From positions 1,484,679 through 1,548,678 of the forward strand of contig NZ_CP041765.1 of assembly GCF_007559025.1 (NCBI RefSeq): a DNA stretch of 64,000 bases, read 5' to 3'. Under the pieces are notes generated by a model. That model was not told the DNA's origin. It worked only from the letters and a program-made list of their open reading frames with translations, and made no database searches. Origin of the DNA: Tomitella fengzijianii. Its GTDB lineage: Bacteria > Actinomycetota > Actinomycetes > Mycobacteriales > Mycobacteriaceae. Shown piece by piece: positions 26,674-47,370 of this stretch. Numbering within the stretch: position 1 is the first letter of the stretch; the number at the start of each line of letters is the position of its first letter. A program made the translations under genes and the position numbers.

Positions 26674-28557
26674 TCAGTTGGTCCGGGTGTTCGGCAGGTG
26701 GGGTCCGATGTAGCCGACGTAGATCTTCCCGGTGCCGGCCGCGTCGTCGTAGTAGTGCATCCGCGGGCTGATGGTGCCGTAGCGGCTGATCCGGAAGTGA
26801 GCGCCCATGAACACCGTTCCAGACGGGGCGACGCCTGTCGGTACCGGAAGCGTGCGCGGCGCGCTGTATTTGCTGTCGTTCTGAATGGTTCCGCTTTCGA
26901 CGGGCACATGAGCTCCTGCGGGGAACCCGTGACAGGTGCCCGGAGTGTCCATCAGATAGTGGTGGACGCCGCCGGTCGGTTCGCCGTTGCGGGTCAGCCG
27001 GCAGTAGTCGTTCAGAGCCAGCAGAGCGTCCCAGGATTTGCCTGCCCAGGTGCCCAGGGGATCGTGCTTGTCGAGGTCGTGCGTCTTGTCCTCGTCACCG
27101 GTGAACTCGACGTACTCGAGTTCGTCGAATCGCCGCAGAAGGTCGTCGTGGCTTTCGGGGCGGACGTCCAGCGGGTCGTCGTCAGGCTGCGACCATGCGG
27201 CCTCGGCCTCGCCGATTCTCGCGAGCTCGGTCCGCACGTGCCGGAGCTGGCGTTCCGCTTCGGCGCGTTCGTTCTCCGCTTGGACGCGTTCGAGCTGTTC
27301 GTCCTCGAGCAGCAATCGGTGCAACTCGGCCTCGTCGTGCGCTTCCGCGCGTTCCGCCTCGATCCGCAGCATGCGTTCCTGGAGATCCTCGCGTGCCTTG
27401 GCGGTGGTTCGCGCCCGGCCGGCGAGTGCGCCGAGCGACCGGACGGTGGCCGCGTCGACGGTGGTGGTGCCGAAAAGGTCGCGCAGCACGTCGGTGAGTG
27501 CGGAGAGCGCGGACAATGCCGGCCCGTCCGCAAGGCCGGCCGGGTAGGGCGCGTCCGTGGATACCGGAGGTACCTGCACCTCGACGGCAGCCTCCAGGCT
27601 GCCCTCGCCGGTCGTAGCCGCGGTGAGGTTCTGTGGCGGTGTCGCGTCCTCGAGCAGGGCCGTGTCCAGTCGCGAGCGCAGGCGCGTATCGACGTCCGCC
27701 GCATCCCGGGGCAGGGGCGCGCTGGTGGACAGCGCCCGCGCCTGGTGCGCGAGCAGGCCGCGGAGAGCGTGACGGTTGGCGCGGATGATGCGGTCGGTGG
27801 TGAGGTAGCGGTGCCGGACCCCGTCGAGGGGATCGTCGAGGTCCACGCCGGGGCGGAACGTGCGCACGGTGCCGGGGGCGATGCGGTGCGTGGCGGGGAG
27901 CCACGAGTTGACGAGTTCGGTGGTCTCGGCGTCGAGGACGTGGGCGGAGGCCAGACCGACGGTGTCGCGCAGGATGCCGCGGACGTAGTTGGCCCACTTG
28001 TCCAGCGGCAAATTGTCGTTCGTCCCCGCGAGGAACAGTAGGCCGCGCCGCCGCGGGTCCTCGATCGCCTGGAGGATCTCGGTGGCCCGGGTGCGCCGTG
28101 CGATGCGTGCCTGTCCGGTGAGAACGTGGTCGCCGTCGCGCCCGGTGACCGAGCGCAGCAATTCCCCGGCGATGCGCGGCGGCTTGGGTTGTGGTCCGCC
28201 CTCGGGACTGTCGATGTCGAACCACACCCAGCCGGATTCGCCGCCGGCGTCCAGGTGCAGCGTGACCGTGGTGGTCCAGGTGCCGCTGTGCTGGTGCTGA
28301 TCGAAGACGAACCGCGAGCTCCGCGCGCCGTCTCCGCCACCGACACCATCGCGGTCGCCGCCACCATCGTCGCCGCTGTCGCCGCCGACGTGGACGAGGG
28401 TGCCGGTGACGTTTGCCGCGATCTGTTGTGCGCTGCCCTCGACGAGCTTCGTCGCGTCCCACGACTTGCTGCTGAGCCATTGGAACAGCTTGCCGTGCAG
28501 TATCTCCTGGGCGTTCGGCTCGTCGCGGAACCGGAAGAACGAACGGTATCCGAGCAC
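26674..28557 (-). CDS. defence-module protein of unknown family (coiled coil, conserved C-terminal domain)
   Basis: 627 residues, GTG start two bases after the DUF499 stop, with GAGGAGG seven bases before it: clearly the second gene of one operon. No named family recognised. Visible parts: FFRF at 7-10; a beta segment TTTVTLHLDAGGESGWVWF (95-113); an alpha/beta stretch RGLLFLAGTNDNLPLDKWAN ... GLASAHVLDAETTELV (171-216); a charged coiled coil (about 385-450, with ERMLRIEAERAEAHDEAELH); and a C-terminal domain (475-627) ending ISPRMHYYDD ... KIYVGYIGPHLPN. The C-terminus is highly conserved in the orphan paralog at 13631-15490. No membrane segment. A role as a sensor or effector of the DUF499 ATPase is inference. 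Confidence 0.8.
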   Translation of the reverse strand: MLGYRSFFRFRDEPNAQEILHGKLFQWLSSKSWDATKLVEGSAQQIAANVTGTLVHVGGDSGDDGGGDRDGVGGGDGARSSRFVFDQHQHSGTWTTTVTLHLDAGGESGWVWFDIDSPEGGPQPKPPRIAGELLRSVTGRDGDHVLTGQARIARRTRATEILQAIEDPRRRGLLFLAGTNDNLPLDKWANYVRGILRDTVGLASAHVLDAETTELVNSWLPATHRIAPGTVRTFRPGVDLDDPLDGVRHRYLTTDRIIRANRHALRGLLAHQARALSTSAPLPRDAADVDTRLRSRLDTALLEDATPPQNLTAATTGEGSLEAAVEVQVPPVSTDAPYPAGLADGPALSALSALTDVLRDLFGTTTVDAATVRSLGALAGRARTTAKAREDLQERMLRIEAERAEAHDEAELHRLLLEDEQLERVQAENERAEAERQLRHVRTELARIGEAEAAWSQPDDDPLDVRPESHDDLLRRFDELEYVEFTGDEDKTHDLDKHDPLGTWAGKSWDALLALNDYCRLTRNGEPTGGVHHYLMDTPGTCHGFPAGAHVPVESGTIQNDSKYSAPRTLPVPTGVAPSGTVFMGAHFRISRYGTISPRMHYYDDAAGTGKIYVGYIGPHLPNTRTN

Positions 28558-28559
28558 GC

Positions 28560-31500
28560 TCAGTCCTCCTCGAACCCGGACTGGTCGAACTTGAGCGTGT
28601 TCGCGTTCTCGCCGACGGTGCGCACGGTGGACTCGTCGAACCCGCCGGGGGCGGTGGCGGTGATCTCCAGGCGCACCTCCAGGTGCACGCCGTCGACGGC
28701 GGCGAGGTTCTGGATCACCTCGTCGGTGATGGTGGAGAAGTCCTTGCCGTAGAGCGCGCCGAGCGTGGCGGAGCCGAAGAAGCGGGTCTTCGGGCAGGGT
28801 CCGGGCGGCGTGGTCGCCCCGGCGCTCGAACCGCCGGACAGGCCGCCGGCGGCTCCTCCGCTTCCCTGGTCCGTTACGCCGCCGGAGCCGCCGTCGGTCC
28901 AGTCCTTATCGCCTGCTCCTCCCTCGATGCGCTTGCGTTCCTTGTCGCGCTCGATGATCTCCTGGGCGCGCTGTTTCTCTGCGCGGCCCGGCTCGACGAT
29001 GAGCAGCGCATCGGTCACCTGGGGAGGCGTGGGGTCGCCGGGGATGACCAGGCCGACGTAGCGCTGGCCGTCCCATTCCTGCGCCACGGCGAAGCCCGAT
29101 TGCGTCCACACCATCTCGTCGAGCGCGCTGAGCACCCCGGCCTCCAGCACCGTGCGGTCGCGCAGCCGCGGCATGTAGGGGTAGCGGGTGTAATAGTTCC
29201 ACAGGTCGCCGACGCTCATGTGGCCGTCGCGATCCCAGACGGTGCGCAGGAACCGGTCGATGTCCATGCGCACCAGGCTGCCGTTGCGCTGTGTGGACAG
29301 GGCGCTCTGGTTGCGCATGCGCGCGGCCGCCCGGTCGACGAGATTCTGGCCGGTGGTGTCCTTCTCGCTCACGATGGCGAGGGGACGGTCGGCCAGCGGC
29401 TGCTCCGGGTAGAGCACGTGGATGTAGGTCTCCAGCAGGCGCGCGTCCACCGTGGTGTCGAGCTTCTCGCGGCGCTCGCCGGCCTGCTCGCGTTGGGCGG
29501 CGGTGAGGTTGAGCTCCTTGTCGGCATTGACATGCACGTAGGTCCAGGCGAGGTATTCGCGCACCACGTCGGACAGCTCGCTGTAGCGTGCTTCGTCGGC
29601 GGCGAGGAACGCGATCATGTTGCGGCACTGGCGGGCCGCGCTGCCGCGGTGTTCGGTGGCGTCCAGGGCCCAGTCCTTGGCGGTGGAGGCAGTCTTGGAG
29701 TGCGTGTGCGCGGGCGGCACGATGATCAGACGCACCTCGGCCGAGTCGGGGATGTCGGCAGTGGACTCGGGCGCCACGTGCACGGCGGCGAACCCGTCCG
29801 CCGCGATCTTCCGGTGCTTCTCGAGGCGCGCCGTCACCTCGGCCCACACGTCCTCGGGGTGCAGGCGTTCGGCGTAGTCGCGGGCAGTGCGGGTGGTGTT
29901 GGCCTGGGTGTCGTACCAGTACATCGCGCCGGAGCTGTAGAAGTACGTGGCCGTGTTGGCCAGGCGGTTGAGCGCCGAGTGGAAGTTGCCGGGCTGGTCA
30001 CCGGGCAGTGCCGTGCCCAGGAACACGCGCTGCTGGTCGATGCCCTTGTGTGCCGAAGTAAGGGTGGGGGCGGCGCCCATGAACACGGTGCGGGCGAGGC
30101 GCTGGGTGACCCGCCGTTGCCCCAGTGCCTTGTTGGCGGCGTCCACGCGGGCGGGCGCGGCGTGCTCGCCGTCCACGTCGGTGTCGATGAGCGCCTTCCA
30201 CTCGTCGCCCAGGTACTGGGTGAGCTCGGTGAGCACGGCGTCGGCGCGCAGGGGCACCGAGCCGGGCATGATGAGCGGCGCCGCGTCGTCGCTTCGCCAC
30301 AGGTGCCCCACGATAGTGTTCATCAGCCGCAGCACGCCGCGGGTGCGCTGGAACCGCTCGAGGGTGGACCAGTCCTGGTAGAGCCGGTCGAACAGTTCCG
30401 GGTGCACCGGGTAGCTGCGGCGGATGCGCTCCTCGTAGTCGTTCTCGCGCACCTCACGGGGGAAGTCGGCGCTGTTCTTGCGGTAAAACTCCACCATTGC
30501 GTTGGCGGTGGCCCGGATCTGGGCGAGGGCCTGGGCGTCGGGCGTCTCGAACAGGCGCCGGCGCACGATCTCGAACGCCTCCTCGGAGCCTGCGGCCCGC
30601 CACTGGTCCGCGACGCGGCCGATCGCGTTGCGCAGCATGCGCAGTGCGGCGCGGCCGTTCTCGCCGCCGACCTCCTCCTCGTCGCCCACGTATTCGCCGT
30701 CCTTCATCTCCGCGGACGCGGGGATGGAGATGAGCACGAGCACGCCGGGGACCGCCTTGGCGGCCTCGGTGAGGGTCTGGGCGAAGGTGAACTGGGCGTC
30801 GAACGTGCCGTCCACCAGGTCGTCCCGGCCGTGGAGCATGCGGGCGTAGGCCACCCACTCGTCGATGAGGATCACCGCGGGGCCGAACCGCTCGAACAGG
30901 GTGCGCAGCGCCTCGCCGGGGTTGGTGCCGGCGCGGTCGGACTCCTCGACGATGGCGTACCCCTCGGCGCCTCCCAGGTGCCAGGCGAGCAGTCCCCAGA
31001 TAGTGTGCACGCCGGTGCCGTCGGGCATGGGCTTGACCGCCCCGGCCTGGATCTGCGTGCCCACCAATGCGACACGGCGCACCGACTCCGGCAGGGAGAG
31101 CCCCGAGAGCACGTCCTGTACGTCCTGCGGGTAGTCGATGGCGGGGGTGCCGGAGGCCAGGTGCCACACCGCGAGCATCGAGTGCGTCTTGCCGCCGCCA
31201 AAGTTGGTCTGCAGGTTGATGACCGGGGACGCGTTGTCGTCCCCGCCGAGGCGGCGCACCGCGCGCACGATGAGGTCGCGCAGGCCCTCGGTGAGGTAGG
31301 TGCGCTGGAAGAACGGGACGGGATCGGTGTATTCCGGGTCGCCGTCGCCGCGGGCGACCATCGCCAGGTCGGCCGCGAACTCGGCGGCGTGGAAGTTGCC
31401 GCTGGCCACGTCCGCATGCGGGCGCAGCACTTCCCGCCACGGGGTGACGCCCGACGAGCCGACCTCCGCGGTGCCGGAGGAGACCACCTTGCGGTCCGCC

Positions 31501-31958
31501 TGGTCGGCCGAGATGCGCATGATCTCCACGCGCCACTTGCGCACCTCGCCGGCCTGATCGGGCTGAACGGCGGCGGTGAGCAGACGCTCCATCGTGTCCA
31601 GCGCCCGGTAGGCGTCGTCGCCGGTGAACGAGCCGTTGTGCGCCCACGTGTTGCGGGTGTCGATGAGCTCGCTGGCCAGCGACATCTGAGAGCGGGAGAG
31701 GAAGTCGTTGAGCGGGAACCAGCCCTTTTGGATCTGACCGGTGACGTTGGTGGCGATGATCCGCAGGCTGCACTGGGGATCGGTGCGCTGGTAAGTCTTG
31801 CCGGAGATGCCGTTCTGCTTGTCCCGCAGCTGCAGCAGCGCAGTCCAGTCGGCGTCGCCGGTGATCTCGCCGGCGAACACGCGGGTGAGGAACGAGTCCA
31901 GGCCCGTGCCCAATTGCTCGAAGGCGCGCCCCACTCGGTCGCGATTGCTCAAGGCCAT
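28560..31958 (-). CDS. DUF499 P-loop ATPase with N-terminal HEPN-like domain, anti-phage associated
   Basis: 1132 residues. The N-terminus (1-150) resembles the Swt1-type HEPN domain, with the Rx4H motif R102-NTWA-H107 in IDTRNTWAHNGSF. The ATPase follows: Walker A FGGGKTHSM (253-261), Walker B VILIDEWVAY (362-371). A long helical region and a Gly/Ser linker (SGGVTDQGSGGAAGGLSGGS) precede a final domain of about 80 residues. DUF499 ATPases occur in phage-defence clusters with DUF1156 methylases. Start ATG 31958 has AGGGGG seven bases upstream. It is promoter-proximal to the unknown protein, and an ATGCACAAC-type site lies 50 bases upstream. Confidence 0.9.
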   Translation of the reverse strand: MALSNRDRVGRAFEQLGTGLDSFLTRVFAGEITGDADWTALLQLRDKQNGISGKTYQRTDPQCSLRIIATNVTGQIQKGWFPLNDFLSRSQMSLASELIDTRNTWAHNGSFTGDDAYRALDTMERLLTAAVQPDQAGEVRKWRVEIMRISADQADRKVVSSGTAEVGSSGVTPWREVLRPHADVASGNFHAAEFAADLAMVARGDGDPEYTDPVPFFQRTYLTEGLRDLIVRAVRRLGGDDNASPVINLQTNFGGGKTHSMLAVWHLASGTPAIDYPQDVQDVLSGLSLPESVRRVALVGTQIQAGAVKPMPDGTGVHTIWGLLAWHLGGAEGYAIVEESDRAGTNPGEALRTLFERFGPAVILIDEWVAYARMLHGRDDLVDGTFDAQFTFAQTLTEAAKAVPGVLVLISIPASAEMKDGEYVGDEEEVGGENGRAALRMLRNAIGRVADQWRAAGSEEAFEIVRRRLFETPDAQALAQIRATANAMVEFYRKNSADFPREVRENDYEERIRRSYPVHPELFDRLYQDWSTLERFQRTRGVLRLMNTIVGHLWRSDDAAPLIMPGSVPLRADAVLTELTQYLGDEWKALIDTDVDGEHAAPARVDAANKALGQRRVTQRLARTVFMGAAPTLTSAHKGIDQQRVFLGTALPGDQPGNFHSALNRLANTATYFYSSGAMYWYDTQANTTRTARDYAERLHPEDVWAEVTARLEKHRKIAADGFAAVHVAPESTADIPDSAEVRLIIVPPAHTHSKTASTAKDWALDATEHRGSAARQCRNMIAFLAADEARYSELSDVVREYLAWTYVHVNADKELNLTAAQREQAGERREKLDTTVDARLLETYIHVLYPEQPLADRPLAIVSEKDTTGQNLVDRAAARMRNQSALSTQRNGSLVRMDIDRFLRTVWDRDGHMSVGDLWNYYTRYPYMPRLRDRTVLEAGVLSALDEMVWTQSGFAVAQEWDGQRYVGLVIPGDPTPPQVTDALLIVEPGRAEKQRAQEIIERDKERKRIEGGAGDKDWTDGGSGGVTDQGSGGAAGGLSGGSSAGATTPPGPCPKTRFFGSATLGALYGKDFSTITDEVIQNLAAVDGVHLEVRLEITATAPGGFDESTVRTVGENANTLKFDQSGFEED

Positions 31959-32008
31959 GGGTGCGCCCCCTGTTCCCGCATGCGCGCGTCACCGGCGCAC
32001 TGAACGAA

Positions 32009-32026
32009 TACCAACGTGTTGTGCAT
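32009..32026 (-). promoter_or_regulatory. shared defence-module operator, copy 1
   Basis: On the minus strand the site reads ATGCACAACACGTTGGTA. The first nine bases are identical to the copies at the methyltransferase and helicase/XRE promoters. It lies 50 bases upstream of the DUF499 start. Confidence 0.55.
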
Positions 32027-32094
32027 AGCACTCTAGTCGGGCGCTGCGACAGGATTCACCGGCGTGGCGGGATCGGCGCGGGGGCGCGGGTGGC

Positions 32095-32481
32095 TCAGGC
32101 GGTGTCAACTGCCGGGGCGTCGCCCTTCACCACGTACACCTCCCACGGTTCGTCGCCGGGGCCGTGCACCCACACCTTGTCCTGGAGTGCGTAGCAGCAG
32201 GTGGTGTCGTTCTCGTCGACGGTCGCCAGCCCTGCGGCGGCGAGTCGGTCGGCCGCGGCGCGGACCTCGTCGCCGGATTCGACCTCCACGCCCAGGTGGT
32301 CGAGTCGCGTGACCTGCCCGGGCTCGCCCTCGATAAGTACGAGCTTGAGCGGGGGATCGGCGATGGCGAAGTTGGCGTAGCCCGGGCGTCTCTTGGCCGG
32401 CTCCACGCCGAACAACTCGGAGTAGAAGCGGATCGACGCCTCGAGGTCGGTGACGTTGAGGGCGAGCTGGGCACGTGACAT
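32095..32481 (-). CDS. cadI: CadI/ArsI-type VOC dioxygenase
   Basis: 128 residues, glyoxalase/VOC fold. The adjacent cysteine pair in NDTTCCYALQDKVW is the arsenic-binding signature of ArsI C-As lyases and mycobacterial CadI (Rv2641). Metal-ligand candidates are the His in LDHLGVEV and the Glu in PWEVYVV. ArsI removes the methyl group from methylarsenite with O2 and Fe(II). It is divergent from arsR-acr3, the usual context, and probably de-repressed by the same ArsR. Confidence 0.9.
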   Translation of the reverse strand: MSRAQLALNVTDLEASIRFYSELFGVEPAKRRPGYANFAIADPPLKLVLIEGEPGQVTRLDHLGVEVESGDEVRAAADRLAAAGLATVDENDTTCCYALQDKVWVHGPGDEPWEVYVVKGDAPAVDTA

Positions 32482-32560
32482 GGAGAGCCTCCTGTCGTTT
32501 TGGATCGATGAATGTCTATCCAGTGTTGCGCGCTGAATTGAGAGATGTCAATATAGATGC
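32482..32560. promoter_or_regulatory. divergent cadI/arsR promoter region
   Basis: 79-base gap with an AT-rich core (GTCAATATAGATGCATG around 32547-32563), unusual for this GC-rich surrounding. TATAGA at 32552-32557 ends three bases before the arsR ATG, and no clear Shine-Dalgarno is seen. An ArsR operator is expected here but its exact bounds are not resolved. Confidence 0.5.
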
Positions 32561-32929
32561 ATGTCGAAGCAAACGTTGGCGGACTGCTGCCCGGGGCTGC
32601 TCTCCGCGCCCCTGAATGAGCAGGACGCGGGGGAGTTGGCGCGGGTGTTCAAGGCGCTCGGCGATCCGGTCCGCCTGCGGCTGCTGTCGCTGATCGCCTC
32701 GCGCGACGGGGGAGAGGTGTGCGTCTGCGACCTCACCCCGGCGTTCGCGCTGTCCCAGCCGACGATCTCGCACCACCTCAAGCTGCTGCGCGAGGCCGGG
32801 CTCATCGGCTCGGAGCGGCGCGGCACCTGGGTGTACTACTGGCTGCTGCCGGAGACCACCGACCGACTGGCCGCGATCCTCACCCGCCCGGCGGATCTCG
32901 CCGAGACCGCCCCGGCCGCCACTGCATGA
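32561..32929 (+). CDS. arsR: ArsR-family arsenic-responsive repressor
   Basis: 122 residues, winged helix-turn-helix (FALSQPTISHHLKLLREAGL). Two cysteine clusters are seen: C9-C10 at the N-terminus and C54-V-C56 in EVCVCDL. An N-terminal Cys pair plus a Cys near 55 is the As(III) site of the Corynebacterium glutamicum ArsR type, whereas E. coli uses the CVC alone; this protein has both elements. It overlaps acr3 by four bases (ATGA), so the regulator is made with the pump. Confidence 0.92.
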   Translation: MSKQTLADCCPGLLSAPLNEQDAGELARVFKALGDPVRLRLLSLIASRDGGEVCVCDLTPAFALSQPTISHHLKLLREAGLIGSERRGTWVYYWLLPETTDRLAAILTRPADLAETAPAATA

Positions 32930-34038
32930 CCGCGCGCGTGGACACGGGGGAGACCGGACGGGCGGCCGAACCTGCGCGGCTGTCCTTCCTCGACCGGTTC
33001 CTGGCGGTATGGATCCTGCTCGCCATGGCGGTGGGGCTCGGCCTGGGGCGTGCCATCCCGGACCTGGACGTCGCCCTCGACCGGATCCAGGTCGACGGGG
33101 TCTCAGTGCCGATCGCGCTCGGCCTTTTGGTGATGATGTACCCGGTGCTGGCAAAGGTGCGCTACGACCGCATGGGCGCCGTCACCCGCGACCGCCGGCT
33201 GATGGCGATCTCCCTGGTGCTCAACTGGGTGGTGGGCCCCGCGCTCATGTTCACCCTCGCGTGGACGTTCCTGCCGGACCTGCCGGAGTACCGCACCGGG
33301 CTCATCATCGTCGGTCTCGCGCGCTGCATCGCCATGGTGGTGGTGTGGAACGACCTGGCCTGCGGGGACCGCGAGGCCACGGCCGTGCTGGTGACGATCA
33401 ATTCGGTCTTCCAGGTGCTCATGTTCGCCGGCCTCGGCTGGTTCTACCTGTCGGTCCTGCCCGGGTGGCTGGGGCTGGAGCAGACGACTATCGACGTCTC
33501 GCCGTGGCAGATCGCGAAGTCGGTGCTGATCTTCCTCGGCATCCCTCTGGTCGCGGGGTTCGCCACGCGCCGCTGGGGCGAGCGTGCCAAGGGCCGCGAC
33601 TGGTACGAGCAGCGGTTCCTGCCGAAGATCGGCCCGTGGGCGCTGTACGGGCTGCTGTTCACCGTGGTGGTGCTGTTCGCGATGCAGGGCGAGCAGATCA
33701 CCTCGCACCCGGTCGACGTAGTCCGCATCGCGTTGCCGCTGCTGCTGTACTTCGCGATCATGTGGGCCGTCGGCTTCGGCACGGGCGCGGCCGCCGGGCT
33801 CGGGTACCGGCGCACCGTGGCGATGGCGATGACGGCGGCGGGGAACAACTTCGAGCTCGCCATCGCCGTGGCGATCGGCACCTACGGCGTCGCCTCCGGC
33901 CAGGCGCTGGCCGGCGTGGTGGGGCCACTCATCGAGGTGCCGATCCTCGTGGGGCTGGCGTACCTGTCGCTGCGGCTGCGGCGGCGGTTCGCGCCGGCCG
34001 GTGGGGTGACGTCCCGGACGGTGCAATCCGGCGGGTAG
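32926..34038 (+). CDS. acr3: ACR3-type arsenite efflux permease
   Basis: 370 residues, ten hydrophobic segments, BASS superfamily. Characteristic ACR3 motifs: the thiolate cysteine in helix 4 (ARCIAMVVVWNDLACGD) and the helix-9 glutamate in TAAGNNFELAIAVAIG. It exports As(III) with the proton gradient. Start overlaps the arsR stop. Together with cadI it forms a compact three-gene arsenic cassette placed between two parts of the defence module. Confidence 0.93.
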   Translation: MTARVDTGETGRAAEPARLSFLDRFLAVWILLAMAVGLGLGRAIPDLDVALDRIQVDGVSVPIALGLLVMMYPVLAKVRYDRMGAVTRDRRLMAISLVLNWVVGPALMFTLAWTFLPDLPEYRTGLIIVGLARCIAMVVVWNDLACGDREATAVLVTINSVFQVLMFAGLGWFYLSVLPGWLGLEQTTIDVSPWQIAKSVLIFLGIPLVAGFATRRWGERAKGRDWYEQRFLPKIGPWALYGLLFTVVVLFAMQGEQITSHPVDVVRIALPLLLYFAIMWAVGFGTGAAAGLGYRRTVAMAMTAAGNNFELAIAVAIGTYGVASGQALAGVVGPLIEVPILVGLAYLSLRLRRRFAPAGGVTSRTVQSGG

Positions 34039-35247: not shown

Positions 35248-36012
35248 TCAACTCGGGAGGGCGAGGCTGCGTCCGCGCCACAGCACACGTTCGTCGGGGT
35301 CCGTCACGCCGCGTCCGGGTGACACGGTGCCGGACAGCCAGTCCTGCGGTAGCCAAAGTTCCTCTGGATTCTCGAATCCAGCCGTCCGGCACACTGCCTG
35401 GATCGTCTGGTCGGCGAGTTGCAGGAACAGGGTGAACGCCATCCTCGCGGTCGTGGTGTTGATGGTCTTGCCGTCGCTCGCGTCGGTCTGCACTTTCCAG
35501 TCCCGGAGTTGAGGAAATGCCTGGTGAGAAACAGAATTGCGGACCTTTATCCAAAAACTGACCAGGTTGACCAACTCGTCAGTCAACCCATTTTCCGGTT
35601 GTCCGAATCTAAGCGACTTTCCACTGCCTGACGTAGCGATTCGTATTCGCCAATCGCCAGGAAGCTGACCGTTGCTGCACTTCGCGAGTGTTGATTCGTC
35701 GGTTGAATATTCGCTCGTTTTATATCGTGAAAGAGAAGCGTGCCCCCTGCTGTGGGCTTTCCCTGGGACTATCGGTGAAGCAGAATCACGTTCTGCGAGG
35801 GACTCAAGATCTGCAACCAGCCTCTCCCACGTCACGACGCTAAGGTTTGCGATTAGCGGGTTCAGTGTTCTTCGGGGTTGATTACCGCTTACGGGTTTCT
35901 CGTTATGGATAATTATCAAGTCGACGATTTCACCGAATCCCGCCCGAGTGTTCGTGCAAACTTTTGCGAAAGATTCCCGCTTTTCTTTCGTGAAGGCTGA
36001 AGTCGGTTCCAT
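35248..36012 (-). CDS. small HEPN-motif protein, probable part of the defence module
   Basis: 254 residues from ATG 36012 with GAAAGG six bases upstream. It follows the DUF1156 gene by 70 bases on the same strand. I do not recognise a named family with certainty, but FWIKVRNSVSHQAF carries a HEPN-type Rx4H motif (R158-NSVS-H163) within a helical C-terminal half (MAFTLFLQLADQTIQAVCRT), similar to pEK499-p136-like HEPN proteins. The gene is strikingly AT-rich: I count 25 G/C in bases 35881-35940. A ribonuclease effector is possible but not shown. Confidence 0.7.
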   Translation of the reverse strand: MEPTSAFTKEKRESFAKVCTNTRAGFGEIVDLIIIHNEKPVSGNQPRRTLNPLIANLSVVTWERLVADLESLAERDSASPIVPGKAHSRGHASLSRYKTSEYSTDESTLAKCSNGQLPGDWRIRIATSGSGKSLRFGQPENGLTDELVNLVSFWIKVRNSVSHQAFPQLRDWKVQTDASDGKTINTTTARMAFTLFLQLADQTIQAVCRTAGFENPEELWLPQDWLSGTVSPGRGVTDPDERVLWRGRSLALPS

Positions 36013-36082
36013 CTTGGGCCTTTCGGTGTCGTTTTCTCGTTTCAGCTGTAACTCAAGCTGTAGATTCTTCGGAAAGTTGGAA

Positions 36083-38869: not shown

Positions 38870-38912
38870 GGCTGGGCGGCTCCTTGGGCATGCGGGGCTC
38901 CGCGTTGACGGA

Positions 38913-39014: not shown

Positions 39015-40990
39015 GTGACGGAATTCCAGGGCCGCCCGGATGCAGATGACGCCGTCGACCTGCTGCGCGCGCACGAGCCCATCACCGGCGAAGAGTGGAC
39101 CGAGCTCCTCGTGAACGCAGGTTGGGGGCGCGCCGACGCGCAGGCTTTCGTCCGCAACGGGCCGGAGCCGTACATCGTCGAGTTCCCCGACGGTCGCACG
39201 GTCGTGATGGACCGGATCGCGGACGCCACGGTCGTCACCCGCCGCGTCACCGCCGCGGAGATCGCGGCCGACATTCTGGCAGACGGCCCGGACCTGGCGG
39301 TCCTCACGATCCTGCGTCCGAACGCGTCTGTCGAACTGCCGGTGCTAGGCGATTACGCGGTGTTCGAGGAGCGCGGCGCGGAGGAGCTCGCCGAGTCGAT
39401 CGAGGCCGGCCTGATCCTCAAACGGGGAACGCTCGCCCGGTACCGGCCGGGAGACCTCGTCGGAGTGCGCATCGGCGAGGGCGGCGCGGTGTCGGTGGAG
39501 CCGGTGCAGACGCCAGTGGAGGCGGATCTGGGCGTGGTCCTCACTGTCGCCATTGCTGCGGGAGAGTCGGTGTACGTGGACGACATCCTGCACCAGGAGG
39601 CGTGGGACCACGGGCTGCTGTGCACGCCCAGGCTGCCGGTGTCCGAGCTGGTTGAGAATGCGGGATACGGACTGGACAACGGACATGTCGCCCGCTCGCA
39701 CGCGGATCTCGAAACTTCCCGCCGCAAGCTGCGTGAGAGCATGCTTGCAGGCGTGTGTTCGGATGGTGGGGTGGGTCTGCGGCTGATCATGTTCGGCCGT
39801 ATCGACCCCGCGAAGCGGGAGGAGGCGCTGCGGGCCGCGTTGTCGCGCAACCCGCACGCCTTCGACGCCCTCGGCGATTACGACGAGGTCGCCGATTTGC
39901 TCGCGACCATTCGCCCGGATGAGCCAGTTCGGCCTCGTCCTCGACGCGCTCGACGAGGCGCGGGCGACGAGCGTGGCCGAGGAAGTCGTGCCCCAGTTGG
40001 CCGACGATCCGCTTGCCGCCGATGTCGCCCTGGTCGAGGGCCGGCTGCTGGAGGCGTTCCTCGACTACTGCGGGCCGCTGCTGACCGACGAGGACAAGAT
40101 GCTCGCGGCGCAGTGGATGCTGCTCGAACGGTCGGTGTACGAGGTGCTCGAATCGCGTCCCGGCGAGGGCTTCACGCTCCGTGACGCGCGCACCGGCGAC
40201 CGGGTGGAGGTGACGGAACGGATAGGGTCGCGGGAGATCGACACCGGCGGGTTCCTGTGCCTGCGCATCGTCCCCGAGGGCGGCGAGAACATCATCTACG
40301 GGGGCATAGAACCCGTCGACCCGGCACTGCGCGGCGAGCTGATCGACATCCTCGACGAGCCGGTGGACCCGTTCGCGCTCATCGAGCTGCTCAGCCGCCG
40401 CCTCGCCCCGTTGCGGATGCGCACTGCCACCGGCCGAGGAGATGGTCGTCTGCACGGGCACGTTCGTTATCCCCGACGCGACCGGCGTCGCCCGCAAGCT
40501 CAGCCGTCGCTACGGCAAACGCGACGGCGACGAGTGGACCTGGCTGGACGGGACGCGCGTCCTCGGCACGATCGGGCAGATCTTCTCGGACGACGGGGAG
40601 ATGGCGCTGACCGTCGACGCGATGAGCGAGGAACGCTACGAGGCGATGACCGACCACCTGCTGTCCATCGCCCCGGGCGCCGAACTGGTCGTCGAATCCC
40701 GCAGCACCGCCGCCGAGCTGGTGGACCACGCAATGTAAGGCGGCGGTGCCCCGGCGCCCGCACCTGAGATGCCACCCGAAGCGGCGACAGCGCTGGAGGA
40801 GTTCATCCGCGACTACGAACGCAAGTGGATCGACGAGCCGGTGCCCGCGTTGCAGGGCCGCACCCCGCGCGAGGCGGCCGAGGACCCCGCGACGAGGGAC
40901 GATGTGATCCGCCTGATCGACACGTTCCCGGAGGCCACGCAGCCCGGCGCCATGAGCCCCGCCCGGCTCCGGGAGTTGCTGGGGCTGTAG
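39015..40990 (+). pseudogene. decayed gene of a SEC-C-associated protein family, three lesions
   Basis: Starts GTG 39015 with TACCGT six bases upstream. Frame 1 reads well to about 39915 (ADLLATIRPD), then coding sense continues one base shifted (FGLVLDALDEARATSVAEEV) to about 40433, then shifts again (RTATG / EEMVVCTGTFVIPDATG). It then meets an in-frame TAA at 40736-40738 before PPEAATALEEFIRDYERKWI and DEPVPALQGRTPREAAEDP. The concatenated product resembles the long actinobacterial proteins that end in this DEPxPALxGxTPREA domain. Either a pseudogene or an assembly with several errors; high GC and two distinct shifts make decay plausible. Confidence 0.75.
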
Positions 40991-41009
40991 CTGTGCAGGT
41001 TCTCGCTTC

Positions 41010-41071: not shown

Positions 41072-41139
41072 GGGGTGGAAGACGCCGGGGATTCAACGAT
41101 AGCGTTGGCTGGCTGTTGTTGCCCCCGGAGAGCGCCCCG

Positions 41140-41967
41140 CTAGAGTCGCCCGCCCGCGTCGATCACGTGGGTGGTGCCGGTGATGTAACGCCCGGAGTCG
41201 GACACCAGGTAGACGATGGCCTCGGTGACGTCCGACGCCTCGACCATGGACACCGGAAGCTTGTTGAGTTCGCGGGCTGCCTCCTCGAAATCCTCCCGCC
41301 CGGGGTTCTCGAGGTCGGGCCGGAAGAGCCGGTAGGTGGCGTCGTTGAGGATCATCTCTGTGGCCACGGTGGTGGGGTGCACCGAGTTGACGCGGATGCT
41401 CTGCGGCGCGAGCTCCTTGGCCAGCACCTTCATCAGGCCGATCAGCCCCGTCTTGGCCGCGCTGTAGTGCGCGATGTTCTCGTTGACCGACAGCGCGGCC
41501 AACGAACTGGTGAGCACCACCGAGCCGCCCCGGCCGCCTGCGACGATGTGCGGCACCGCGGCGCGCACCGTTTTCCACACGCCGGTGAGGTTGATGTCGA
41601 TCATCGTCTGCCAGGTGTCCTCGCTCATCTCGAGCGTCGGCGCCATGGTGCTGATGCCCGCGTTGGCCAGGACGATGTCGAGGCGACCCAGCTCGGTGGC
41701 GCCCTCCTCGGCGATCTTGGTCAGGCCGGCGAGGTCCCGCACGTCCACGTCGGCGGCCAGGATCCGGCGGTCGAGCGCCTCGACCTGCCGGACCGTCTCC
41801 GTCAGGTCATCCGCACGCGCCGTGTCGTAGGGGACCGTCTCCACCTGCGTGGAGGTGTCGACGGCGATGATGTCCGCTCCCTCCTGCGCCAGACGCACCG
41901 CGTGGCTGCGGCCCTGCCCGCGCGCAGCCCCGGTGATGAACGCGACCTTGCCCTCAAGCGTGCCCAT
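41140..41967 (-). CDS. mycofactocin-coupled short-chain dehydrogenase
   Basis: 275 residues. Rossmann start KVAFITGAARGQGRSHAV, active-site Ser in SSLAAL and YSAAK (Tyr/Lys pair). The insertion after beta-strand 2 (IIAVDTSTQVETVPYDTA, continuing to the next helix) is the hallmark of mycofactocin-coupled SDRs, which carry a non-exchangeable NAD and hand electrons to mycofactocin. It would oxidise an alcohol. The mft biosynthetic genes are not in this window. Divergent from an MftR-like TetR regulator. Confidence 0.9.
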   Translation of the reverse strand: MGTLEGKVAFITGAARGQGRSHAVRLAQEGADIIAVDTSTQVETVPYDTARADDLTETVRQVEALDRRILAADVDVRDLAGLTKIAEEGATELGRLDIVLANAGISTMAPTLEMSEDTWQTMIDINLTGVWKTVRAAVPHIVAGGRGGSVVLTSSLAALSVNENIAHYSAAKTGLIGLMKVLAKELAPQSIRVNSVHPTTVATEMILNDATYRLFRPDLENPGREDFEEAARELNKLPVSMVEASDVTEAIVYLVSDSGRYITGTTHVIDAGGRL

Positions 41968-42140
41968 GTCCGCTGCTTTCCGCGGGCCCGGCGCGCGGCC
42001 GTACCGTGGGGCACCGGGTGCCCGCTGTCTCCACAAAATGTGATGCGTGTCTCTGACGCCGAGAATATGGCATTGTGTGACAAAATTCCAGGGTGCGCAG
42101 ACGGACACCCGGCTCGGATACCGACGAGGTGACGTTCGCC

Positions 42141-42725
42141 GTGACGGATTCACAACGGCCGGTGCGCGTGGGGCGGCCGGCCAGCACCACCGCGCACGCA
42201 CTTGCCGCGCACGCCCAGCGGCTGTTCGTCGAGCGCGGATTCGATCACGTGGGCGTGGACGACATCGCCGCGTCCGCGGGGATCAGCCGTCGCACGTTCT
42301 TCCGCTACTTCGGGTCGAAAGCGGACGTGGTGTGGGTGGAGTCGGACGCCGAGCTGGCGGCTTTCCGGGCGGGACTCGCGGCGGCGGGCGAGAAGGACCC
42401 GGTCGACGCCATCGCCGAGGCCTTCGTCGCCGCACTTGACCACGGCAGCGGTGAGGATGAGTGGGCCCGGCATCGCGCACAACTCATCCTCGCCGCGCCG
42501 GCCGTGCAGGCGCACGCCACCGAGGTGTACGGGCAATGGCGGGCCGTCGTCCGCGACTACGTCACGGCGCGGTGCGGCGCACAACGGGACGGGTCGTATC
42601 CGATCGCCGTGGCGCACGCGGTGATCGCGGCGTCGACCGCGGCGCACGAACTCTGGCTGACGCGGCCGGAGACGAGTCTCGCCGAGTGCATGCGGTTGAT
42701 GTTCGCGCAGATGCTGCCGCGCTGA
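42141..42725 (+). CDS. TetR-family regulator, MftR-like
   Basis: 194 residues from GTG 42141 with GAGGTGA eight bases upstream; longer in-frame starts exist at 42129 and 42093. Helix-turn-helix VGVDDIAASAGISRRTFFRY, followed by FGSKADVVW. The RRTFFRYF-K-DV-W pattern and the GRP start resemble the mycofactocin cluster regulator MftR, which senses long-chain acyl-CoA. Together with the divergent mycofactocin-coupled SDR this points to a locally regulated alcohol-oxidation unit. Confidence 0.85.
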   Translation: MTDSQRPVRVGRPASTTAHALAAHAQRLFVERGFDHVGVDDIAASAGISRRTFFRYFGSKADVVWVESDAELAAFRAGLAAAGEKDPVDAIAEAFVAALDHGSGEDEWARHRAQLILAAPAVQAHATEVYGQWRAVVRDYVTARCGAQRDGSYPIAVAHAVIAASTAAHELWLTRPETSLAECMRLMFAQMLPR

Positions 42726-42767
42726 ACCGCTGCCGGAAGGTGTGGTTGCGCCCTACCGCCCGGCGGG

Positions 42768-42829
42768 GTGACCGGTGTGCGCAAAGCTACGGTTTTGCGC
42801 CTCAGACCGTAGTTTGGCGCACACTGGTC
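42768..42829. repeat. 62-bp palindromic dispersed repeat, copy 2
   Basis: The arms here extend to 17 bp with one mismatch (42766-42782 against 42818-42834: GGGTGACCGGTGTGCGC and GCGCACACTGGTCACCC). It lies between convergent genes, like copy 1, so it may serve as a two-way terminator. Confidence 0.75.
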
Positions 42830-42905
42830 ACCCACACGGCGCGGTCAGAGCGCGCCGTACCCCGCCGGCGCCACCATCCGCCGTTTCGCCCTTGCCTGCC
42901 GGCGG

Positions 42906-43229
42906 TCAAAAGTCGTATCCCGTCTCTGTGGCACCGCCTGAGCCGGTCGCCTGGTAGCGACGCAAGTGCACGCTGCGGGCCAGGCGGATGACCGGGCGGA
43001 TGAGCATTTCGACGCTGCCGATCACGAACAGGCACGTGCCGGCGAAGGTGAGGGTCTCGGAGAAGAAGAAAAAGCTGCCGATGACGAACCAGATGCCGAT
43101 CAGGATGTCGTTGGCGATGCTGAGGACCTCGTACCGGTGGCGGATCACCAGCTCTTCCGGGCCCATGTGAATGATGACGGGGCCCGGCCCGGATTCCATA
43201 CCGGCAGGTTCACGCGGTGTTGCGGGCAT
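42906..43229 (-). CDS. YrhK-like small membrane protein
   Basis: 107 residues from ATG 43229, GGAG six bases upstream. Two hydrophobic helices (ILIGIWFVIGSFFFF and TFAGTCLFVIGSVEMLI) after EELVIRHRYEVLSIANDI, the pattern of the YrhK domain. The C-terminus is basic then Gly/Thr-rich and cytosolic. No function is established. No obvious link to the helicase upstream on the same strand; the gap is 139 bases. Confidence 0.75.
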   Translation of the reverse strand: MPATPREPAGMESGPGPVIIHMGPEELVIRHRYEVLSIANDILIGIWFVIGSFFFFSETLTFAGTCLFVIGSVEMLIRPVIRLARSVHLRRYQATGSGGATETGYDF

Positions 43230-43368
43230 GGGTGTCTCCGTTCGGGTGCTGATCGGGTCTGGCTTCAGAGTCGATCGTTCCCGCCGTGTCCGCGTAGCGC
43301 AGGCCGGGGTCGCTCGACTCCAGCCTGCCGCCGTCACAGCGTCCGGCCCCGTCACGCACGTCCGCGCT

Positions 43369-46300
43369 TCACACCGGCGCGCCGCCGGCCTCCCACACGT
43401 CGCGCCACTTGGCCTCGATGCCGGTGGCGGCGAATGAGCCGAAGTTCCAGTGCCGGAACGCGTCCACCACGTATCGGAGCTGATCGTGCTCGGGCCCATC
43501 CGGGCTCACCGCCACCAGCGCCAGCCGGTGCTGCAAACCTGTGTTCCGCCCGATCGTCACCTCGTTGCGCGTGACGAAGAACGTGTCCGCACCCATCACC
43601 CGGCCCTTCACCTCGATGAGAAGCGTCCGGCCGTCGGCGGTGGTGGAGCGGATGTCGAAGCCCGGATTGTTGTGCGGCATCTCCTCCGGCGTCCGGCCCA
43701 GCGCGCGCTCGGCGGCCAGCACCATGGCCACCGCACGGCGGTCCGAGGTGACCGTGTCGACGGCATGACGCGGCGGCGGTGCAGCGGACTCCGGAACCCG
43801 GCGCGGTTCCGCGGAACCGTCCGGGACTGCGGGCGAGCCCGGTTCCGCGGAACCGTCAGGTGGCGTATCAGTCGGTGAGGGCAGCGCCCCTGCCGTCGGA
43901 GCAGAACTCGCGGATGCCGCCGTCGATGCCGGCGCCAGGATCGCCGCCCCGATGATCTCCGGCGGCCGGGCCGTCAGCCGCCCGCGCGCGTCCAACTGTG
44001 CGCGTCGGGCCTGCATCCGCTGTTCCAGCGCCTCGGCCCGCGAACGCAGCCGCGCCGGCGGCGTCCGCACCGTCCGCGTCGATCCGGCCTCCTCCGCTTG
44101 CTTGACCCGTGTCGCCTCGGCGTGCAGGAAGTTGATCTGCTGGGTGAGCCGCTTCGTCACCGCCGTGCGCGTGCGCTCCACGATCGGCTCCACCCGCCCG
44201 CGCGCCTCGTCGAGCTGGCCCGGCTGGAACTCGCTCGCCGCCCAGTGCAGCGCCATCGATCGGGCCGCGGACGCGCCACCGAGCCGCGCCGCCGCCGCAT
44301 CCACGTCCAACCCGGCAGGCGGCGGCCCCGCGTCCAGGTACGGAGCCATGCCCAGGTCGTGCCCGTGGCCCTGGGAATCCAGAGCGACGAACGCGAAGCG
44401 CTTGTCCACCACGGACCCGTCCCCGTCGACCACTTCGCTGGTCAGCGCCACCAGCAGGCGCACGCCGCCGTCGACGTCGGTGCCACCGTCACCGTGCTCG
44501 GCATCCCCGGCGACGCACAGCACCGCGCCCCGGCGCAGCGCGTCGGCGTTGTGCTCGATCGTCGCGTCGAGCACCGCGTCCACCAGCGGATGACCGGGGG
44601 CGAGCAGCTCGGCACGCGGCGCGCCCGCCCGGTCGATGTCCTCCGGATCGAACGTCACCCGGTGATAGCGGGTGGTCACCGGGCGAGCCCCCGGATCGTC
44701 GGCCCCGGCGCGGCGCAGCGCCGCGGGGACGTGCGTGATCTCGCGGCGCGTGCCCTCGCGCGGCGACATGGCGCCGCCGAGCCGCCGGAACGCCTCGGTG
44801 AACAGCGACTCCACGTAGTGCGGCTGCAGGCGCCGCGCCCGCGCCTCGTCCATGGTGCGGCGCATGCGCTCGAGCTCGACGGGGCCGATGGTCTCGCGCG
44901 CCAGGGCCCGCTCGTGCACCAGCGACGTGAGCCCGTCGGACACCTCCGAATCGACCACAGATTGCAGCTCGCGCATCCGCGCCGGGTCGTCGCCGTAACG
45001 GACGGCGCGCACCAGCAGGTCGCGCAGCGGCTGTTCGGAGAACGCCTCGCCGAGCACGTCGAACAGCCGCCCGCCGTAGGCCTTGCGCTGGGCGTCCATC
45101 TTCTCCAGCAGCCGGTTGAACACCTGGCCCTCGCGGGTGTCGTCGGCCACCAGGTTCCACAACCGGCACACGTGCTCCTGGCCGATACGGTGGATACGCC
45201 CGAACCGCTGCTCGATGCGGTTGGGGTTCCACGGCAGGTCGTAGTTGATCATCAGGTGTGCGGCCTGCAGGTTGAGGCCCTCGCCTGCGGCGTCGGTGGC
45301 GACGAGCACCTGCGCGGTGGGGTCGTGGGTGAACCGCTCACGGATCGCGTGCCGCCGGGCGCGCGGGGTGCCGCCGTGAATGGTGAGCACCGCGTCGGGC
45401 CGCCCCAGCAGCCCCTCGATCTGGGTGGCCAGGTGGTCGAGCGTGTCGCGGTGCTCGGTGAACACGATGAGCTTGCGCGGCGCGCCGTCCGCGGTCCGCA
45501 GCAGCGCCCGGTCCAGCAGCAGCGTGCGCAGCTCGGCCCACTTTCGGTCCTGGCCGCCGTCGCGCACCCAGGTGGCCAGCTCGACGAGCTGGTCGAGGCG
45601 CGCGATCTCCACGCGCAGCTCGGCGGCCGTCTCCGCGGCGGTGGCGGCGTCGGCCACCTGCTCCTCGAGCAGCTCCGCCTCCGCGGCGTCGAGGTCGTCG
45701 AGCTCTGGGATGCGGTGCGGCAGGTGCGCGGGCGGCTGTGCGGCGGCGGTGCGCCCGGCCTCCATGTCGTCCAGCCGGGTGCGGAGCCGGTCGCGGCGGC
45801 GGGTCAGCGACCGCGCGATGGCGTGCGCGCTGGAGGCGAGCCGCCGCTGCAGCACGGTGAGCGCGAAACCCACGGTGCGCGTGCGGGAACCGTCGAGCGC
45901 CTCGGCCCGGTTCATCTCCGTGCGCACGTAGTCTGTGACCGCCTCGTAGAGTTCACGCTCGGCGGGGGAGAGGCTGTAGGGCACGGTCTCGGCGACGCGC
46001 TCGGGGAACAGCGGCGTGCCCTCGAAGGTGAGCAGCTCCTCCTTGACCATCCGCCGCATGATTCCGGTGGTGTCGAGGGTGTGCGCGCCCTCGCGGTACC
46101 GGCCGGCGAAGCGGTCGGGGTCCAGCAGCGCCAGGAACGCCTGGTAGTCCTCCTCGCTGCCGCTGTGCGGGGTGGCGGTCATGAGCAGCAGGTGGCGGGT
46201 GACGGCGTCGAGCGAGCGGCCCAGCTCGTAGCGGCGGGTGGTCTTGAGTTCGCCGCCCCACCAGCGCGCGGACATGCGGTGCGCCTCGTCCACCACGATG

Positions 46301-46875
46301 AGGTCCCATTCGGTGGCGGCCAGGTGCTCCTGCAACTGTTCGTCGCGGGCCAGCTGGTCCATGCGCGCGATCATCAGCGGATGGGCGGGGAACGGGTCGC
46401 CGCCCGGCGAGCGCTCGATGAGCGGACGGTCCAGCGTGCGGGCGTGGATGTCGAAGCGCACGGCCAACTCCTCGCGCCACTGCTCCACCAGCGAACCCGG
46501 CGCGATCACGAGCATCCGGGTGAGGTCGCCGCGCAGCATCAGCTCCTTGGCGTACAGCCCGGCCATGATCGTTTTACCCGCGCCCGGGTCGTCCGCCAGC
46601 AGGAACCGCAGCGGGGTGCGGGGGAGCAGCTCGCCGTAGACGGCGCGGATCTGGTGGGGCAGTGGGCGCACCTCACTGGAGGTCACCGCCACCATAGGGT
46701 CGTGCAGCCCCGCCATGCGGATGCGCAGCGCCTCTGCGGCCAGCCGGAACCGGGCCGGGTCGGCGTCGAACGGCCATGCGTCGGGTCCCGCGGTGCCCGC
46801 GGCGCTCACGGTGCCAACGGTATTCGCGTCGGTCGTACCGGCGTTCAAGGCGGTGCCCGGCCGCTCGTCGTCCAA
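43369..46875 (-). CDS. SNF2/DEAD-type helicase with C-terminal DUF3883 nuclease-like domain
   Basis: 1168 residues from TTG 46875, chosen because GGGGAG lies five bases upstream and the upstream frame crosses the divergent promoter. Helicase motifs: Walker A DPGAGKT (96-102), DEAH (196-199), MTATPHSG, and motif VI QRFGRIHRIGQEH. A long helical region and a Pro/Ser/Ala linker follow. The C-terminal domain has NNPGFDIRSTTADGRTLLIE then VKGR, a PD-(D/E)xK-like pattern typical of DUF3883. Such proteins are frequent in methylase-linked defence systems such as DISARM-like islands. It probably moves on or cuts foreign DNA. Confidence 0.9.
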   Translation of the reverse strand: MDDERPGTALNAGTTDANTVGTVSAAGTAGPDAWPFDADPARFRLAAEALRIRMAGLHDPMVAVTSSEVRPLPHQIRAVYGELLPRTPLRFLLADDPGAGKTIMAGLYAKELMLRGDLTRMLVIAPGSLVEQWREELAVRFDIHARTLDRPLIERSPGGDPFPAHPLMIARMDQLARDEQLQEHLAATEWDLIVVDEAHRMSARWWGGELKTTRRYELGRSLDAVTRHLLLMTATPHSGSEEDYQAFLALLDPDRFAGRYREGAHTLDTTGIMRRMVKEELLTFEGTPLFPERVAETVPYSLSPAERELYEAVTDYVRTEMNRAEALDGSRTRTVGFALTVLQRRLASSAHAIARSLTRRRDRLRTRLDDMEAGRTAAAQPPAHLPHRIPELDDLDAAEAELLEEQVADAATAAETAAELRVEIARLDQLVELATWVRDGGQDRKWAELRTLLLDRALLRTADGAPRKLIVFTEHRDTLDHLATQIEGLLGRPDAVLTIHGGTPRARRHAIRERFTHDPTAQVLVATDAAGEGLNLQAAHLMINYDLPWNPNRIEQRFGRIHRIGQEHVCRLWNLVADDTREGQVFNRLLEKMDAQRKAYGGRLFDVLGEAFSEQPLRDLLVRAVRYGDDPARMRELQSVVDSEVSDGLTSLVHERALARETIGPVELERMRRTMDEARARRLQPHYVESLFTEAFRRLGGAMSPREGTRREITHVPAALRRAGADDPGARPVTTRYHRVTFDPEDIDRAGAPRAELLAPGHPLVDAVLDATIEHNADALRRGAVLCVAGDAEHGDGGTDVDGGVRLLVALTSEVVDGDGSVVDKRFAFVALDSQGHGHDLGMAPYLDAGPPPAGLDVDAAAARLGGASAARSMALHWAASEFQPGQLDEARGRVEPIVERTRTAVTKRLTQQINFLHAEATRVKQAEEAGSTRTVRTPPARLRSRAEALEQRMQARRAQLDARGRLTARPPEIIGAAILAPASTAASASSAPTAGALPSPTDTPPDGSAEPGSPAVPDGSAEPRRVPESAAPPPRHAVDTVTSDRRAVAMVLAAERALGRTPEEMPHNNPGFDIRSTTADGRTLLIEVKGRVMGADTFFVTRNEVTIGRNTGLQHRLALVAVSPDGPEHDQLRYVVDAFRHWNFGSFAATGIEAKWRDVWEAGGAPV
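43805..43854. repeat. two copies of a 14-bp perfect palindrome in the helicase linker
   Basis: GGTTCCGCGGAACC at 43805-43818 and 43841-43854, 36 bases apart, both inside the low-complexity linker coding for repeated D-G-S-A-E-P. The repeat keeps the frame. Confidence 0.8.
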
Positions 46876-46916
46876 CAGTGCTCCCCTCGTCGCTGCGACC
46901 GCAAACGTCACACTCG

Positions 46917-46934
46917 ATGCACAACGTACTGTGC
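46917..46934 (+). promoter_or_regulatory. shared defence-module operator, copy 4 (helicase/XRE divergent promoter)
   Basis: Plus strand reads ATGCACAACGTACTGTGC, with GCACA/TGTGC arms. It lies 41 bases upstream of the helicase TTG and 34 upstream of the XRE GTG, so one protein bound here could control both. Confidence 0.6.
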
Positions 46935-46968
46935 AGACTTTACGGGTGGGCTGCGACACCGTAATCGC

Positions 46969-47370
46969 GTGGCGAGAACCGATGATGAGCTGGAGTGGCC
47001 GAGTTACGGCTTCTCGTTCAGCCGTCGGCTCCGCTACATCCGCCGCCACCGCAATCTCACCCAGGAGCAGCTGGCGCACCTGAGCGGAATGCACCGCAAC
47101 CAGGTGTCCAATCTGGAGCGCAACACCAGCCGCGACGGCGGGTCGGCCGACCCGCACCTGTCCACGGTCTATAGCCTGGCACGCGTGCTGCGCGTGCCGC
47201 CGGAGATGCTCATGCCGGACGCCGCCGTGGCGGTGACGCTGCGCTCGCGGGAGACCGCCGACGACACGGCGTGGGGCGCCGTCGAGGTGGAACTGAGCCG
47301 CCAGCTCATCACCGAGCTGCCGCGCGAAGAGGCGGCACCGCGGTCACTCGGGGCGCGGCCGCGCGACTGA
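46969..47370 (+). CDS. XRE-family transcriptional regulator of the defence module
   Basis: 133 residues, GTG start. Helix-turn-helix RRHRNLTQEQLAHLSGMHRN followed by QVSNLERNTS; LARVLRVPPEMLM completes the Cro/C1 domain. The C-terminal 50 residues are charged and without a known ligand domain. Divergent from the helicase, with the shared motif between them. It is the only regulator directly attached to the module, so it is the obvious candidate to bind the four motif copies. Confidence 0.88.
   Translation: MARTDDELEWPSYGFSFSRRLRYIRRHRNLTQEQLAHLSGMHRNQVSNLERNTSRDGGSADPHLSTVYSLARVLRVPPEMLMPDAAVAVTLRSRETADDTAWGAVEVELSRQLITELPREEAAPRSLGARPRD

Follow-up and report, generated by a model that had tools for sequence, protein, structure and literature searches.

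The window, a stretch of 64,000 nucleotides from Tomitella fengzijianii (NZ_CP041765.1, positions 1,484,679 to 1,548,678) that is part of contig 1 of a 4.01 Mb genome in two contigs, harbors on its minus strand, at 26674–46809, a gene set matching the candidate anti-phage system Hma, followed by a fourth gene, U627. Along this strand the order is HmaA, a YrhK-like gene, HmaB, a HEPN-type gene, HmaC, and U627, with an XRE-type regulator gene divergent from HmaA. HmaA (43369–46809, start approximate) combines an SNF2 helicase with a C-terminal NOV_C domain of the PD-(D/E)XK type, HmaB (36083 to ~38869) is a DUF1156 DNA methylase with DPFAGGG and DPPYYDN motifs, HmaC (28560–31958) is a DUF499 AAA+ ATPase with an N-terminal HEPN_Swt1 domain, and U627 (26674–28557) encodes a protein of 627 residues. 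The HEPN-type protein (254 residues, motif RNSVSH) is encoded at 35248–36012 on the minus strand, which is its true frame; the longer open reading frame (ORF) at 35248–36519 is another frame overlapping the methylase end. The XRE-type regulator (~46969–47370, plus strand; Pfam HTH_3, 1.7e-11) lies at the end of a plus-strand ORF spanning 44098–47370. Behind HmaA, a gene for a YrhK-like small membrane protein (42906–43199, minus; Pfam YrhK, 6.2e-22) has a homologue in the same-genus relative G013. Gene calls and Pfam thus bear out the presence of the six genes (HmaA, HmaB, HmaC, U627, HEPN, and XRE) that a preliminary description of this DNA had interpreted as a dispersed, undescribed anti-phage system. 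Of the two operons proposed there, the first is compatible with the spacing of HmaC and U627, which begins 2 nt past the HmaC stop; HmaB and the HEPN gene are 70 nt apart.

The core genes were identified by a PADLOC profile search of ten window proteins. All three match their Hma profiles nearly end to end: HmaA with 1195.5 bits (profile positions 66–1149 of 1176), HmaB with 1081.2 bits (5–956 of 967), and HmaC with 879.4 bits (3–941 of 941). Next-best PADLOC kinds score far lower (DrmD 361 and BrxH 320 bits for the helicase, MTase_II 147 bits, general DUF499 114 bits). Pfam assigns SNF2-rel_dom, Helicase_C, and NOV_C (9.3e-15, residues 1140–1222) to HmaA, DUF1156 (1.7e-30) to HmaB, and DUF499 (4.3e-28) to HmaC, whose N-terminal HEPN_Swt1 domain (3e-27) the preliminary description did not mention. 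NOV_C is the former DUF3883. A sequence search of the PDB with HmaC gave no match at 0.01. In the available part of PMC8565338, the name Hma is given to an operon of three genes, for a helicase, a methylase, and an ATPase, and the accessible text of PMC12839542 presents the same gene set as Type-1 BREX-related (BR); in that text, 1370 of 2446 taxa have HEPN fused to DUF499, and 1921 (79%) have the helicase–nuclease fusion. All three genes lie at one locus, on the same strand and in the order A-B-C. Because they match a named system, the core is not undescribed. Judged by these profile matches it is a complete Hma, alias Type-1 BR, a known candidate anti-phage system, and adds no new one; the defense character proposed for the methylase, helicase, and ATPase is supported by the same family matches.

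The alternative that the core is DISARM, BREX, or a BREX-related system of a different type, with Hma merely the nearest label, is extremely improbable. The helicase does match DrmD and BrxH, but at less than a third of the HmaA profile score, and its C-terminal NOV_C nuclease fits Type-1 as characterized in the available text of PMC12839542. PglZ has no match in the whole focal genome, while 2 of 14 control genomes have one, which speaks against BREX and Type-3 BR; HsdS (Methylase_S), the specificity subunit expected of Type I restriction–modification, is likewise without a match genome-wide (9 of 14 controls matched), so that the absence of pglZ and hsdS reported earlier stands. DUF3780, expected for Type-2 BR, was also not found in the focal genome, although no control matched either.

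In the window, 4.5 kb separate HmaA from HmaB and 4.1 kb separate HmaB from HmaC. The A–B gap contains, outside Hma, a broken SEC-C motif gene (39015–40963, plus) and, at 41140–42725, a short-chain dehydrogenase gene (minus; Pfam adh_short) and a plus-strand gene that is presumably TetR-like. The B–C gap holds, besides the HEPN gene, a glyoxalase gene (minus) and an SBF-family transporter gene (plus) at 32095–34038, both assigned by Pfam. Two same-genus relatives, apparently Tomitella cavernea (G013) and T. biformata (G041), were compared with this layout. XRE, HmaA, HmaB, HmaC, and U627 lie together in G041, with ~780, 20, and 10 nt between matched segments. The G013 locus occupies the same chromosomal site as the window, between GreA-side genes and an AMP-binding enzyme gene, and is 82–94% identical in DNA over long stretches. 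Its A–B gap holds a SEC-C gene, and its B–C gap holds Ltp-type and M78 peptidase genes; the window's dehydrogenase, TetR-like, SBF, glyoxalase, and HEPN genes all lack a match in the part of G013 that was fetched. Eight relatives have A, B, and C uninterrupted on a single contig; in three of them (G057, G107, G134) both gaps are below 200 nt. Since the genes lie together in G041 and G013 has a same-site locus without the metabolic cargo, the spread of the core is, by this comparison, a local rearrangement and not the mark of a new system.

Cargo and a broken gene between core genes could also be expected of a decaying, non-functional Hma island whose operon was split by insertions. The window SEC-C gene lacks residues 300–472 of the 831-residue G013 protein and has a later frame change. 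At the same site in G060 (C1:1751000–1773500) the 831-residue SEC-C frame is open, and a 118-residue NOV_C tail is all that remains of HmaA beside XRE; as HmaC has no match anywhere in the G060 genome, this relative has apparently lost Hma and kept the tail as a footprint. HmaB is interrupted by ~1.6 kb in G122 (L034) and G085 (L045). Inteins were considered for both and rejected: three-frame translation gives stops, with a transposase-like frame in G085 recognized by eye, and the interruptions are therefore insertions. A Tudor-like HmaA N-terminus also appears to be missing from the window (see below). Set against these signs of decay, the frames of HmaA, HmaB, HmaC, and U627 are open over their full length, and the center of HmaB has been replaced by another open one rather than broken. 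HmaA and HmaC are ~92% identical to their G013 counterparts, with high GC content at third codon positions (GC3), as would be expected for genes under selection. We regard a dead island as unlikely, and a rearranged but complete Hma as the better account.

In this Hma lineage, U627 is a fourth gene that is inherited together with HmaC but is not always present. Of the 401 family genomes, 13 have a strong U627 match, taken as one above 500 bits (12 genomes) or the split copy in G215, with a cut-off set after the scores were seen. Each of these 13 belongs to the 47 genomes whose HmaC scores above 750 bits (Fisher 1.5e-13). At an E value of 0.001, 28 of the 401 genomes have a U627 match, and 16 of these 28 have some HmaC, vs 56 of 401 overall. 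HmaC lies directly upstream of U627 in 10 of the 13 strong-match genomes; in G389, G383, and G189 the two genes share a contig at distances of 5.8, 5.8, and 9.6 kb. The distance from the HmaC stop to the U627 match is 2–54 nt in nine genomes, and across these nine the divergence of one protein tracks that of the other (Mantel r 0.965, reached in none of 5000 permutations; r 0.934, P 0.0008 without the three Tomitella). Mapped on an HmaC tree, U627 requires 6 changes vs 8.2 in shuffles, 14 of 500 of which were as low. This tree contained 38 proteins, nine labeled with U627; G389, G383, G210, and the main G219 copy, all U627-positive, were not included, and the other G219 copy was labeled as lacking U627 despite a distant family member in its B–C gap. 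That member (L079, G219 C1:2050581–2052263) lies between HmaB and HmaC and not behind HmaC; in a second Hma copy of G219, U627 follows HmaC. As 34 of the 47 HmaC genomes are without strong U627, Hma does not require it.

By predicted structure, U627 consists of START-like, thioredoxin-like, and coiled-coil parts and a conserved C-terminal domain, in which H587, R599, and H601 are invariant. PADLOC relates it to HEC-07 (29 bits; U627 residues 123–277, profile positions 140–296 of 553), HEC standing for Hma-embedded candidate according to PMC12988326. We file U627 only as a relative of HEC-07, because the match covers part of the profile; the C-terminal domain matches NsnC instead. Foldseek comparison of this domain (residues 470–627) with the PDB and viral models gave no match at E ≤0.001, and the VIA rows for U627 span mainly residues 133–281, with few at 1–138, so that the C-terminal domain was barely tested by fold search. 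A sequence search of the PDB with U627 returned only coiled-coil-like rows at E 0.04 and worse, and Pfam, run to E 0.5 on 12 family members, gave no family in more than three. Residues 346–627 retrieved 19 proteins with uninformative names, one called ATP synthase subunit b, probably a coiled-coil label. No family of 627 residues like U627 was found in the literature, a search that did not cover the preprint defining HECs (cited in PMC12988326). The window also contains a second, distant family member at 13631–15490 (minus; 619 residues) that matches NsnC and HEC-07 profiles, lies away from Hma, and is present in G013 and G060 as well. A PIN-domain gene (25908–26342, minus; Pfam 2.2e-11) is situated just downstream of U627.

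Relatives of U627 are also encoded behind other systems that attack DNA. A scan of genome contigs for the family yielded 33 loci, whose neighbors were assigned by tblastn, gene calls, and family scans; the survey included no control family and is descriptive only. HmaC is directly upstream in five loci (L107, L108, L118, L128, and L125, the last with only the final 47 HmaC residues matching), and in 11 a different DNA-attack gene or operon lies 40–207 nt upstream on the same strand. These neighbors are an HsdR-like gene in L110 (from Lentzea), HsdM in L116, a DUF4011/MTES_1575 helicase operon in L112, L114, L115, L117, and L135, a Type IIG enzyme behind a DrmD-like helicase in L127 and L131 (scanned in L127 only), GmrSD in L122, and PLD-DEAD-DUF3427 in L124, where Hma is also present on the opposite side. 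In four more loci (L109, L132, L134, and L138), Hma is represented within 10 kb by genes or a remnant. The other 13 have no visible neighbor of this sort or are cut by contig ends (L111, L113, L119, L120, L121, L123, L126, L129, L130, L133, L136, L137, and L139); in L111, a 188-residue piece falls into the same BLAST cluster as the L110 HsdR. The DUF4011/MTES_1575 loci form a conserved actinobacterial operon of an AAA/TOPRIM-like gene, the helicase (PADLOC PDC-S37), a 278-residue gene with no family match, and the U627-family gene; the L112 operon was scanned against families, and the other four share its BLAST clusters.

The U627 family thus occurs behind Hma, Type I, Type IIG, two kinds of Type IV, and the DUF4011 helicase–nuclease. 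We tentatively propose, as a possibility we hold at somewhat less than even, that its members are general-purpose restriction partners, which would serve at least six kinds of DNA-attack system as a shared sensor or backup effector. If true, very different restriction enzymes would share one downstream alarm or common partner that can be tested on one protein. U627 might instead be a hitchhiker in defense islands, having no joint function with Hma or other defense genes. Its optional presence, the 6 changes on the HmaC tree, the 13 loci without visible restriction neighbor or cut by contig ends, and the second window copy away from Hma are all compatible with this. The short distances behind HmaC in nine genomes, the divergence in step, and the close same-strand position behind other DNA-attack genes argue for a shared role, and we consider the hitchhiker unlikely.

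Homologues of the HEPN-type protein occur in 3 of the 401 family genomes, and the other two lack HmaC; in relatives, the position of its gene is taken by different toxin or restriction genes. The predicted fold of the protein is AbiV-like (PDB 9bj6, 9bj7), in a model of low confidence (predicted local distance difference test, pLDDT, 61) and at 9–10% sequence identity, with an R-x4-H motif. We conclude that this protein is likely an embedded accessory. Of 10 relatives with HmaA, 4 have XRE divergent from it, and G060 has kept XRE as well. If the HEPN protein, U627, and XRE were obligatory parts of a new anti-phage system of six genes, this would agree with the clustering of the genes within 21 kb and with the co-inheritance of U627 and HmaC. 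Such a system is highly unlikely given a core that equals Hma, HEPN homologues in genomes without HmaC, the many HmaC genomes without strong U627, and the patchy occurrence of XRE. Within the proposed association, then, the links of U627 and partly of XRE to Hma persist, and that of the HEPN gene does not; nor do the six genes form one unit, with the HEPN gene found apart from HmaC and U627 relatives beside other systems. By PADLOC profile, the core matches nearly end to end a system described in the available parts of PMC8565338 and PMC12839542, and homologues of the accessory genes occur independently; because both were found, the claim of an undescribed core fails. The gaps of Hma (A–B, B–C, and behind C) are slots where toxin and restriction genes dock, and dispersed arrays can therefore resemble new systems.

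A second point of interest is a central cassette in HmaB (residues 351–700 in 925-residue numbering; 36761–37810, minus). In 50-residue blocks, focal and G013 HmaB are 84–100% identical over residues 1–350 and 701–925, vs 32–78% over 351–700 (94% for the flanks and 60% for the center overall). Focal GC3 falls to 0.37–0.60 over residues 421–660 (0.43–0.76 in G013), compared with ~0.9 on the flanks. A search with the center found matches in 54 of 401 genomes. The best other match is G134, of another genus, at 64%, and twelve other-genus genomes outscore G013 (60%). The G013 center is 0.77 identical to that of G155, again of another genus, with flanks at 0.82. Among 28 unbroken HmaB proteins (378 pairs), the three closest pairs have flank/center identities of 0.94/0.60, 0.92/0.71, and 0.90/0.62, and the focal–G013 pair shows the lowest residual in the flank–center regression (z −2.8); the regression used 28 of 30 HmaB sources, leaving out G259 and one G367 copy, whose matches were short or broken, and the pairs share sequences and are not independent. 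Exchange by recombination is probably the simplest reading of these patterns, simpler than fast divergence of the center alone. By analogy, the center likely reads the DNA target, because a recognition insert is described in the available part of PMC12839542 and PglX is presented as the BREX specificity factor in that of PMC11341690. It would then offer a handle on the target choice of Hma: same-genus strains have near-same machinery and different cassettes, and a methylome comparison between such strains could link each cassette to its motif with no need for engineering. The second contig of the focal genome contains a methylase segment distantly similar to HmaB (G000:C2:15884–16525, plus; 32% identity, E 4.4e-7).

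We are reasonably confident that the window carries an Hma locus that is complete, though rearranged, and is accompanied by a co-inherited fourth gene, likely working in a restriction–modification-like manner with a second line of defense. Such a model with a HEPN fallback is proposed for Type-1 BR in the accessible text of PMC12839542, and is likely here too. HmaB would methylate adenines, with its central cassette defining the site, and HmaC would spend ATP to assemble or license attack on unmarked DNA, along which HmaA would move and cut with NOV_C. If this first line fails, the HEPN domain of HmaC, and perhaps also the separate AbiV-like protein, may cut RNA. XRE would repress the locus. 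The neighborhood of U627 suggests an accessory effector or sensor, which would be coupled to the DNA-attack machine because its relatives lie directly behind other DNA-attacking enzymes.

Several points weigh against this picture. Besides the dispensability of U627, Hma loci do decay, as the apparent loss in G060 and the interrupted HmaB of G122 and G085 indicate. Joint expression of the core is not assured across gaps of several kilobases with opposite-strand genes. Of 10 relatives with HmaA, 8, counting G134 itself, have the 76-residue N-terminal HmaA segment of G134 that we take for a Tudor domain; the segment was not found in the window, G013, or G031, with the HmaA start being unsure and no Tudor profile having been run. 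Finally, the available part of PMC8565338 (Payne et al.) predicts HmaB to be a 5-methylcytosine enzyme; PADLOC and the accessible text of PMC12839542 favor adenine. Overall, the finding is mostly explained by known biology, with the portable partner U627 and the HmaB cassette as points of specialist interest.

Compared with Hma or Type-1 BR, the window shares the helicase with C-terminal nuclease, the DUF1156 methylase, and the DUF499 ATPase with N-terminal HEPN, all in the same order. It differs in that the core is spread by 4.5 and 4.1 kb with cargo, unlike the tight operon in the available part of PMC8565338, in its additional U627 and HEPN genes, and in that a Tudor-like HmaA N-terminus was not seen. 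HEC-07 likewise occurs with Hma, and each of the 12 U627-family proteins in the alignment matches one of its profiles (best 1.4e-20); U627, however, matches it partially, has a C-terminal domain of the NsnC kind, and has relatives behind several non-Hma systems. AbiV, which the separate HEPN protein may resemble, is the HEPN RNase of a two-component antiphage system. With BREX PglX/BrxX, as described in the available part of PMC11341690, Hma would have in common a methylase with a second role in setting the system's target: the focal genome contains no PglZ, unlike BREX, and the center of HmaB, as a putative specificity factor, would act like an exchangeable recognition part.

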